From Paludibacteraceae bacterium (GTDB lineage: Bacteria > Bacteroidota > Bacteroidia > Bacteroidales > Paludibacteraceae): DNA of 64,000 bases. Made by a program: the position numbers and the translations under genes. This document shows, in pieces, positions 3,238-64,000 of the stretch. The notes beneath the pieces are model-generated. The model saw nothing but the letters and a program-made list of their open reading frames with translations. It made no database searches and had not been told where the DNA came from. The stretch's first letter is position 1, and every line of letters starts with the position of its first letter. Location: NCBI GenBank assembly GCA_905233375.1, contig CAJOEJ010000001.1, forward strand, positions 55,585 to 119,584. The letters are read 5' to 3'.

Positions 3238-3329
3238 CACCCGAATTCGCGCTTGATGAATAGGGGATAGAAAAAAACATAAAATAACGTAAGAAAAAAT
3301 AATTTTGGATTAGTTGTGTTGCGATAAAT

Positions 3330-3492
3330 TTAGAAAAAAACAAACAAAACCCTTTTGAATGATTATGAGCTTCGCTCCTTGTGTCAATTGCTGCTAAAAA
3401 GTACCTAAAAGTAAACTTTTGCACTTTTTACCAACAATTACCACAACTCTTCGAGTTAAATCATTAAAAAGACATAAACATAAAAAACAATT
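3330..3492 (+). ncRNA. Candidate structured cloverleaf-like element, copy A (RNA or DNA element)
   Basis: 13-bp closing inverted repeat with one mismatch (3352-3364/3459-3471), hairpins GAGCttcGCTC, AATTG..TAAAAAGT..ACTTTTTA..CAATT and AACTCttcGAGTT; homologous to the reverse complement of 63690-63843. Confidence 0.6.
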
Positions 3493-3697: not shown

Positions 3698-3740
3698 ATA
3701 TGCCGGATAAAATCCGGCGGAAACGGAGGAAGAGATTTTA

Positions 3741-3839
3741 AGTACCAAGTGACCAAGTACCAAGTACCAAGTGACCAAGTACCAAGTACAAAGGGACAAA
3801 GTTCAATGTACAAAGTGACAATGTACAATGTACAAAGGA
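3741..3839. repeat. AAGTACC/AAGTGACC and TACAATGTACAAAGG word array
   Basis: aagtaccaagtgaccaagtaccaagtaccaagtgaccaagtaccaagtacaaagggacaaagttcaatgtacaaagtgacaatgtacaatgtacaaagg. Confidence 0.9.
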
Positions 3840-3896
3840 AGGGCGAAGCGTGGTTGATGATTGAAGAATGAAGGTTTAAGATTTTATTACTATATT

Positions 3897-34398: not shown

Positions 34399-35910
34399 TT
34401 ATTGCACTTCCGAGCCGGACACATTATATGTCTTGCCGCCTTGGAGGATGAACAGCTGACCGTCCTTGATCAGCTTCCGGCTCTGCTCCCTTGGCTCCTG
34501 GCTTACATGCTCCGTGCCTTCCCATTCGCCCATGGTGAAATAGCCCGGATAGGCGCTTCCTCCGTCGGGACGGGCATACAGACCGTTGGTATGCTCCTCG
34601 CTGTATGCCGTACCGCTGCCTCCCACCAGACTCGTACAGCCGCGGAACATCTGGCTCGATCCCGAACCTGCTATTTTGTCACTGAGCAGGGACCAGTCTT
34701 TGAAGCAATAGATAGCGGTGAGCGACGAGCAGTAGTCGAACATCATCGAGCAGTCATTGACGTTGTGTACGTCAAACGCATTCAGATCCACCACCTTCAG
34801 CGCCTCGCATTGCTTGAATAGATTGACCATCTCCGTCACGTTAGAGGTGTTGAAATGGCTCAGATCCACCGCCGTCAGAGAGAGGCACCCGCCGAACATA
34901 CTGTTCATATTGGTCACCTCGTCCGTCTTCAGGTGCTCCATGCCTTCGATACGGGTCAGGTTGTTCAACGTATAATAACCGCCACTGAACATATACGCCG
35001 TCGTCGTGAGATGCGCATTCTCCATCGACTCGTCTATCACCGCTTTGGTGATGTCGTTGTGGTAGGTCTCGAAGCGCTTGTGATTGTCTTTGACAGAGGG
35101 ATAGAGCTCGATCTCGCCCGAACGGGTCGCCATCTGGTCGTCGAAATAATACGTGAGCGTGCCGTCCGCATAGACGGTATAAACTCTCATCTGCGAGAAA
35201 TATCCCGGAGCCTCTGCGCCTCCGTCCGGACGCGCGTAGGTCTTGTCCTTCATATTCGGGTTGTATGCCGTACCCGCATTGCCCTTGAGCGCACTGCAAC
35301 CGTCGAACATATCGGTATGCGAAACGAGCGTCTCGCTCGCGCTCCAGTCTTCGTCGCACAGAATGGTCTGCAATGCCGTACAGCCCTTGAACATGCCGTA
35401 CATGTTGCTTACCTTCGTCACATCAAAACTGCGCAGATCCAGCTTGGTCAGCGAACGGCAGTTGGTGAACAGATAGCGCATGTCGCGCACGTTGGACGTA
35501 CGGAAACTGCTCAGGTCGATCTCTGTCAGAGACGAACAGCCGTAGAACATACAGCCCATATCTTCTGCGCCGTCGGTGTTCAGGTTCTCCAAGCCGACGA
35601 TCTCCGTCACATTTTTAAGTGTTACCGTGCTGTTTCCACGAAACAGGCTGAAGAATACCTTACTCGGATCATTGCGCATCGTGAAATCGATCACCACGCG
35701 CGTGATGCGGTCGTTGTAGCCCTCGAAGCGGGGATTACTTGCGCTGTACAGCTCCACTGTCCCGGACCGGTACTCGCGGATATCGTCGTAATAATAGGTG
35801 AGCGTTCCGGTGTTCTCGTCAAACACGGTGTACCGCTCCTCTTTCGCCTGCATGCTCACTGCCGCCAGCACCGCTAACGCAATAAATAGTACACTTTTCC
35901 TCATAATCAT
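34399..35910 (-). CDS. BspA-like / DUF285 leucine-rich-repeat surface protein with GQL-type tail
   Basis: MGCMFYGCSSLTEIDLSSFRTSNVRDMRYLFTNCRSLTKLDLRSFDVTKVSNMYGMFKGC; C-terminus KLIKDGQLFILQGGKTYNVSGSEVQ. Confidence 0.88.
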   Translation of the reverse strand: MIMRKSVLFIALAVLAAVSMQAKEERYTVFDENTGTLTYYYDDIREYRSGTVELYSASNPRFEGYNDRITRVVIDFTMRNDPSKVFFSLFRGNSTVTLKNVTEIVGLENLNTDGAEDMGCMFYGCSSLTEIDLSSFRTSNVRDMRYLFTNCRSLTKLDLRSFDVTKVSNMYGMFKGCTALQTILCDEDWSASETLVSHTDMFDGCSALKGNAGTAYNPNMKDKTYARPDGGAEAPGYFSQMRVYTVYADGTLTYYFDDQMATRSGEIELYPSVKDNHKRFETYHNDITKAVIDESMENAHLTTTAYMFSGGYYTLNNLTRIEGMEHLKTDEVTNMNSMFGGCLSLTAVDLSHFNTSNVTEMVNLFKQCEALKVVDLNAFDVHNVNDCSMMFDYCSSLTAIYCFKDWSLLSDKIAGSGSSQMFRGCTSLVGGSGTAYSEEHTNGLYARPDGGSAYPGYFTMGEWEGTEHVSQEPREQSRKLIKDGQLFILQGGKTYNVSGSEVQ

Positions 35911-35945
35911 TCCAAAGGGTTTTGTTTGTTTTTTTCTAAACTTAT
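35911..35945 (-). repeat. Partial copy (C) of the cloverleaf element 5' flank, fused to the 35910 start codon
   Basis: reverse strand tttagaaaaaaacaaacaaaaccctttggaATGATTATGAG versus 3329-3370 tttagaaaaaaacaaacaaaacccttttgaATGATTATGAG. Confidence 0.75.
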
Positions 35946-63676: not shown

Positions 63677-63689
63677 GAAACGAAAATGT

Positions 63690-63843
63690 TTTTTGTGTTT
63701 ATGTCTTTGAGTGATTTGTACTCGCAGAGTTGGACAAATTGGTAGTAAAAAGTGTCTGTAAGCGTGCTTATAAGCAATTTTTAGTGGCAATTTGTGCAAG
63801 AAGCATTGCTTCTAAATCACTCAAAGGGTTTTGTTTTTGTTTA
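63690..63843 (-). ncRNA. Candidate structured cloverleaf-like element, copy B (strand by homology to copy A)
   Basis: perfect 13-bp closing IR CTTTGAGTGATTT (63705-63717) / AAATCACTCAAAG (63814-63826); hairpins ACTCgcaGAGT, ACAAATTG..CAATTTGT, AGAAGCattGCTTCT. Confidence 0.65.
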
Positions 63844-63852
63844 ATGTTTAGT

Positions 63853-63912
63853 GGACACTAGTGTTATCGCATCTATACTATTTTGTTATATTTTTTCGAA
63901 ACACTAGTGTCC
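63853..63912. repeat. 13-bp inverted repeat GGACACTAGTGTT / AACACTAGTGTCC with 34-bp spacer
   Basis: 63853-63865 and 63900-63912. Confidence 0.9.
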
Positions 63913-64000
63913 CATTAAAATTTGGAACGGTTAAAAATTTATAAATAATTGCCCATTTTGGTCGTTTTGATCTTTGACATTTTGTAAATTAGTCTTATCG

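Follow-up and report, generated by a model that had tools for sequence, protein, structure and literature searches.

The window (the whole 64,000-nucleotide stretch of DNA that was analysed) carries two full copies of an element that we identify as a real, genus-wide and structure-conserved mobile DNA repeat, which belongs in kind with the MITEs and REPINs but has an unusual body, a four-way junction. The first-pass annotation had compared these two copies, proposed selection on their structure and offered three interpretations, namely a regulatory RNA, a small RNA or a single-stranded-DNA mobile element. It tied its reading to further copies in the genome, to covariation in a larger alignment and to the lack of a match to a known Rfam or IS-end family. 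Its third interpretation is the best supported, whereas a regulatory RNA of nrdD is not supported by the evidence given below. The explanation that we favor, and consider probable though not assured, is that the cloverleaf is a non-autonomous mobile DNA repeat that folds as single-stranded DNA and is recognized by its shape and loops, with DDE transposons spreading some copies as passengers.

The two copies align as the annotation had claimed, with copy B on the minus strand in its orientation, and every stem and flank that it quoted is present in the sequence. It had overlooked that the complementary strand folds better and that the stronger structure of copy A is hence antisense to nrdD, as well as a fragment at about 35912-35939 and the terminal repeats at 3311-3324 and 63851-63863. 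With RNA parameters, the strand opposite to the annotated one reaches -37.4 kcal/mol in copy A and -48.5 kcal/mol in copy B, as against -25.4 and -33.8 kcal/mol on the annotated strand. Relative to 200 dinucleotide shuffles, the annotated strand has z-scores of -4.7 (copy A) and -5.9 (copy B), and the opposite strand those listed here with the other features of the element in the window (R2 being the second covariance model, built on the better-folding strand of 28 diverse copies):

3330..3489, minus strand (the more strongly folding one): the whole of copy A, a cloverleaf with a direct repeat on either side; covariance model R2 149 bits, E 8.9e-24; R1 163 bits; fold z -5.9
3352..3471, minus strand: cloverleaf core of copy A, from sequence, RNAalifold consensus and covariation
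3352-3365 with 3458-3471: closing stem of copy A, enclosing the long middle arm with a short hairpin on either side of it
3330..3352, minus strand: 3' flank of copy A on the folded strand, the direct-repeat side adjoining GGGTTTTG, from the direct-repeat register over copies
3471..3489, minus strand: 5' flank of copy A on the folded strand, the direct-repeat side TGTTTTTTATGTTTATGTC, from the direct-repeat register over copies
3311..3324, plus strand: TAGTTGTGTTGCGA, a degenerate TIR2-type terminal repeat adjoining copy A
63687..63845, plus strand (the strand with the stronger fold): copy B, whole element; R2 134.8 bits, E 3.2e-21; R1 157.2 bits; fold z -6.9
63705..63826, plus strand: cloverleaf core of copy B
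63851..63863, plus strand: GTGGACACTAGTG, a TIR1-type right terminal repeat 6 bp past copy B
63867..63880, plus strand: TCGCATCTATACTA, TIR2-like, immediately after the TIR1 end of copy B
35912..35939, minus strand: element fragment (A-rich flank and left half of the closing stem); DNA search match 35900-35929

The fragment forms the immediate upstream region (window 35891-35939, minus strand) of an LRR/DUF285 (BspA-like) gene, whose probable start codon, ATGAGGAAAAGT, comes directly after the half closing stem. Downstream of copy A and still within the nrdD leader, CCGGATAAAATCCGG at 3703-3717 resembles the REP palindrome of the RAYT gene at locus L097, and short tandem-like runs (GTACCAAGTGACCAAGTACAAAGGGACAATGTAC) at 3740-3860 are repeated in further intergenic regions of the source genome (flanks of L009, L062 and L018).

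The family as a whole shares one anatomy: an intergenic unit of about 160 bp, in which a four-way junction of about 120 nt (a closing stem and three arms) is set between T-rich direct repeats of about 15 nt. Read along the better-folding strand, the 5' side consists of TTTATTTATGTTTATTGC (or TGTTTTTTATGTTTATGTC) followed by a closing stem of 13-15 bp. Of the three arms that follow, the first is a hairpin whose loop is GNA or GNNA; the middle one is long, has fixed internal mismatches and ends in a small hairpin at its tip; and the third is another short hairpin. The closing stem is then completed and leads into GGGTTTATCTATGTTTATTTTCT (or GGGTTTTGTATGTTTTTTTCTAA) on the 3' side. The register of the direct repeats is constant at -13 in 114 of 158 copies, and their mean score is 10.19, compared to 9.45 ± 0.12 with shuffled partners. 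The TTATGTTTATT flank bears what we take to be a distant resemblance to the Xer arm of dif. The closing stem of two copies has one or two insertions of a sequence of about 21-25 bp, CTTAGCCACAACGATTATTTC; at L062 (5482-5690) the insert separates the closing-stem arm from the flank, and the other copy is at L063 (8100-8207).

Selection on this structure, which had been proposed from two sequences, is borne out by very strong covariation in the larger alignment. MAFFT alone misaligns the divergent stems; hence, the covariance model was built from 28 better-aligned copies. In their alignment 90.4% of the cells are paired, compensatory changes on both sides are found in 37 of the 46 pairs, and the covariation score is 0.421; shuffles score 0.177 ± 0.009, and slid structures never exceed 0.114. 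Across 137 model-aligned rows both sides vary in all 46 pairs, which we take as supporting evidence only, since that alignment is fitted to the model and includes some opposite-strand matches. In the 13 source-genome copies read on the annotated strand, mismatched pairs are mostly A-C (about 20) versus 6 G-U cells, and an A-C mismatch on that strand is a G-T pair on the other; in the diverse alignment G-T is weakly preferred over A-C (54 versus 37). Covariation of this kind could be mimicked by template-switch correction of one arm against the other, but such correction leaves the retained loops, the three-armed layout and the strand preference unexplained.

The strand preference is nearly uniform. 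With DNA parameters the listed strand is more stable than its complement in every one of the 160 unique copies, and with RNA parameters in 154; the three-armed junction is the minimum-energy fold of 142 copies with DNA and of 114 with RNA parameters. Loops on the folded strand are mostly of the form C[GNA]G, with C[GCA]G, C[GTA]G, C[GAA]G and C[GGA]G dominating; the C(GNA)G triloop has exceptional stability in DNA, unlike the complementary TNC loops. The loop sequences are firmer evidence than the DNA energies, because the energy file may itself favor loops of the C(GNA)G type. That the three-armed fold also forms with RNA parameters, and that compensatory change is as extreme as in RNA families, would suit a structured RNA, non-coding and derived from the folded strand, whether as a dispersed sRNA gene or as a SINE-like (RNA-mediated) element propagated via a reverse transcriptase. 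We nevertheless regard this as improbable: DNA parameters and GNA triloops fit the copies better, G.T pairs make up only 3-7% of the pairs, there is no Rfam match, no gene recurs beside the copies, and many doublets, with 5' ends 5-60 bp apart, leave little room for separate promoters. We favor a folded strand acting as single-stranded DNA rather than as RNA.

The repeat proved to be far more widely dispersed than had been noted. A DNA search with copy A as the query recovered 14 full or nearly full copies and fragments in the source genome, and a covariance model made from 13 copies gave 16 matches with E below 1e-18 in addition to degraded ones; at least 16 full copies are therefore present. 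Within the genus, which is represented by rumen Paludibacteraceae MAGs, the covariance model finds copies in 15 of 25 genomes, and 160 unique full-length sequences were gathered in total. The first covariance model had no matches in 16 other families sampled, and R2, run over 295 genomes of the order, matched two, both of the same genus, and none of the 293 others, with strict filters and nine candidates scored per genome, such that weak matches outside the genus may have been missed. When public genomes were scanned with a pattern, nearly all hits fell in Bacteroidales or Paludibacteraceae MAGs, for the most part from the rumen or other gut sites; R2 did not confirm the scattered hits in Gillisia, Nautiliaceae, Ignavibacteria, Faecisoma and AG-426. 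The statement that the element belongs to no named RNA family also stands: the window has no Rfam match above the gathering threshold, nor at permissive thresholds, the best at copy A being a microRNA model (E 0.12, 21 bits against a threshold of 83). Literature searches of partial coverage yielded no description of a cloverleaf repeat.

That the element is mobile, as opposed to a conserved leader of nrdD, is established by comparisons between genomes. Where pgpH adjoins dus, a copy lies directly between the two genes in one species, six species have a short spacer alone and a seventh (G003) has a cloverleaf of unrelated stem sequence. Complete copies are nested within the outer stem of another such element (L132, L161). 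Locus L041 is a divergent doublet where L165 is a single copy, with flanks that are 78-84% identical; the difference, whether gain or loss, amounts to exactly one cloverleaf and one direct repeat, with AAACCTTAAAAAC left once. Near-identical copies also occur at unrelated sites within single genomes. The copies are intergenic, with 2 of 167 inside open frames, and are oriented in every way relative to their neighbors (35 ++, 44 --, 23 -+ and 13 +-), which include genes for PEPCK, a beta-eliminating lyase, a RecF/SMC-type ATPase, a sigma-54 regulator and sugar epimerases, among others. No transposase, recombinase or other protein family recurs among the genes beside the copies. The close species G001 and G319 have the compared copies in common at the same sites, so insertion there is not very recent, and G007 and G319 are too diverged in sequence for exact insertion boundaries to be placed.

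Certain copies are tightly placed between operon genes, and at two loci (L126, L128 and L169; L041/L165) the element and a few tens of flanking bases are 98-99% identical between species, amid flanking genes that are 71-84% identical. This looks like host constraint or recent transfer, and local constraint, short-tract exchange or same-site re-insertion could each explain it. Such near-identity at two loci and the tight placement would suit a host cis-element, a leader or 3'-UTR structure for the regulation of a gene such as nrdD. We hold this to be highly improbable, as copies occur in both orientations to neighbors of unrelated function and are absent from most of the orthologous junctions tested. 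Similar observations speak against a regulatory RNA of nrdD: the housekeeping genes that flank copies are unrelated to one another, the copies take either orientation, the orthologous gene junctions of relatives are without a copy, and the stronger fold of copy A is antisense to the gene.

Close neighbors among the copies (less than 300 bp apart) are divergent in 26 of 29 cases and convergent in none, and there are many doublets with 5' ends 5-60 bp apart. The folded strand is on the negative-GC-skew strand at 41 of 54 loci (p 1.8e-4) and in 29 of 38 20-kb windows (p 0.0017), the loci being from related species and thus not fully independent; coding orientation, unlike that of the folded strand, is unbiased. 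The leading strand is usually G-rich, and if this holds here, the lagging-strand template is spared the stronger fold, which fits the loss of palindromes from that template or a replication-coupled process. The strand bias could stem from palindrome instability and not from the mechanism of mobilization.

A subset of copies lies inside MITEs of about 280 bp with CATTAGTGTCCACT at the left and AGTGGACACTAATG at the right end (TIR1), and a second terminus, TIR2 (TCGCAACACTACTA), adjoins 20 of 172 copies, on the same side. A TIR1-like repeat is found on the right side of 22 of the 172 and a matching left one in about a dozen. Exact 9-bp target duplications are CAATTTATA (L012), TCTTCACTT and TTCGTGAAC (L061), ATAAGTAAT (L060) and AATTTTTTA (L280), and one copy with TIR2 (L143) has a single exact 9-bp duplication, ATTTACAAT. 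The terminal inverted repeats and target duplications show that a DDE transposase moved the MITE-borne copies. The supposition of the first-pass annotation that its element matched no known family hence holds for Rfam and in part for IS ends, this subset being bounded by DDE-type ends. The window also contains a related terminus:

63902..64000, plus strand: left end (CACTAGTGTCCCATTAAAA..., CACTAGTGTCCCATTAAAATTTGG...) of a multi-copy IS-like element with a TIR1-like terminus, truncated where the contig ends

Three other contig ends of the source genome carry this left end or one closely similar to it; neither the body of the IS with the CACTAGTGTCCCATTAAAA end nor its transposase gene was found in the source assembly.

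With two TIR types and their 9-bp duplications adjoining copies, and a matching multi-copy IS end in the source genome, the element might be seen as an ordinary DDE-type MITE, in which the palindromic core would be internal DNA, the covariation would arise from template-switch (quasi-palindrome) correction and the copies without TIRs would be old remnants. We find this unlikely on several counts. A DDE terminal repeat is recognizable in about 24% of the copies, about 130 of the 172 being without one, and 9-bp target duplications are absent or not seen in copies outside the MITE subset. The C[GNA]G loops are retained with all four N despite the replacement of the stems, and one strand consistently folds more strongly. 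The three-armed layout, the conserved internal mismatches and the direct-repeat register are unexpected from arm correction alone, and the doublets are strictly divergent. The cloverleaf is comparable to DDE MITEs in having a subset with terminal inverted repeats and 9-bp target duplications, but differs from them in that most copies are without such ends and the interior fold is conserved far beyond the needs of a MITE.

The inverted orientation of the doublets, and the presence of RAYT-like proteins in 17 of the 25 genomes of the genus, also bring to mind a REP/REPIN-type element moved by a TnpA_REP (RAYT) HUH protein. REPs are single hairpins of 21-65 nt with a GT[AG]G foot, and Bacteroidetes RAYTs of subclass 2.6 have been reported with 'atypical secondary structures' and without GT[AG]G (PMC6006769), the former lending this reading some appeal. 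GT[AG]G at a hairpin foot was not found in the cloverleaf alignments, where the 5' foot is GTTTATNNC-stem and the 3' foot G-GGGTTT; as subclass 2.6 is reported without this motif, its lack alone is compatible with that subclass. However, the RAYT loci examined carry repeats of their own:

L093 (G003): TTCGCTCATCATTGAGCGAA
L097 (G000 contig 10, source genome): TCCGAATAACATTCGGA
L090 (G019): TAGAGACGG...CCGTCTCT
L091 (G010): GTAGAGCC...GGCTCTAC

Each of these loci codes for a RAYT-like protein of about 160-430 aa with its own REP-like palindromes; at L093 a 77-bp tandem array of REP repeats adjoins the gene, and such repeats are also found within the RAYT reading frame. The subclass 2.6-like RAYT genes at L090 and L091 are flanked by simple palindromes and not by cloverleafs. 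The 1.5 kb around each of 15 Y1-protein loci contained no cloverleaf, and the PF01797 matches are RAYT-like, weak and not beside copies. The cloverleaf is present in three genomes in which no RAYT was hit, and five genomes show the opposite pattern; co-occurrence is not significant (Fisher p 0.19). A RAYT-driven origin thus seems to us a poor candidate. The cloverleaf is like REP/REPIN elements (BIMEs) in being intergenic, multi-copy, folded on one strand and frequently in inverted doublets, but it differs in its four-way junction of about 120 nt, its direct-repeat flanks and the lack of a recognized GT[AG]G foot or an associated RAYT.

Comparable differences separate it from other known systems. 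With the PATEs derived from IS200/IS605 it has in common a folded strand and, in most copies, no terminal inverted repeats; however, PATEs have one hairpin per end, as opposed to one junction per unit with direct repeats of about 15 nt, and no IS200/IS605-type TnpA was found beside cloverleaf copies. Integron attC sites, which are recognized by structure on a folded strand, have variable stem sequences and conserved mismatches, and resemble the cloverleaf in all these features, but attC is a single bulged hairpin, while the cloverleaf is a four-way junction with no cassettes and no recognized attC core consensus. Clustered copies had suggested an integron-like cassette array, which we rejected because the intervening genes are housekeeping genes common to copy-free relatives. 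Cassettes bounded by sites next to an integron integrase were not found; the neighbors are chromosomal housekeeping genes, none of them recurrent. Other small bacterial repeats include ERIC, RUP, Correia and BOX.

We return to the preferred reading, a mobile repeat that would act through its fold as single-stranded DNA read by a putative factor. The folded strand would be single-stranded during replication or repair, and it is there that the fold would matter, with recognition by shape and loops and not by stem sequence. A trans-acting single-stranded-DNA recombinase or nuclease might recognize the folded strand; alternatively, the structure might let the unit be copied or excised across its own direct repeats. 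DDE transposons could then spread the unit further as a passenger. A more specific version, which is conceivable but which we put forward only tentatively, is that the four-way junction is the recognition site of a putative enzyme acting on single-stranded chromosomal DNA, distinct from RAYT/REP, IS200/IS605, integron and DDE MITE systems.

If this is true, mobility depends on shape and loops and the stem sequence is free to drift. The small mobile repeats of bacteria are normally recognized by sequence, in the form of terminal repeats, or by short hairpins; here a complex junction is kept while nearly every stem pair has been replaced across the genus, an unusually clear case of selection for shape on mobile DNA. 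The approximately 160 natural variants make the rules of recognition (loops, mismatches and flanks) directly testable, and the family can now be annotated where genomes show just unexplained intergenic repeats and contig breaks.
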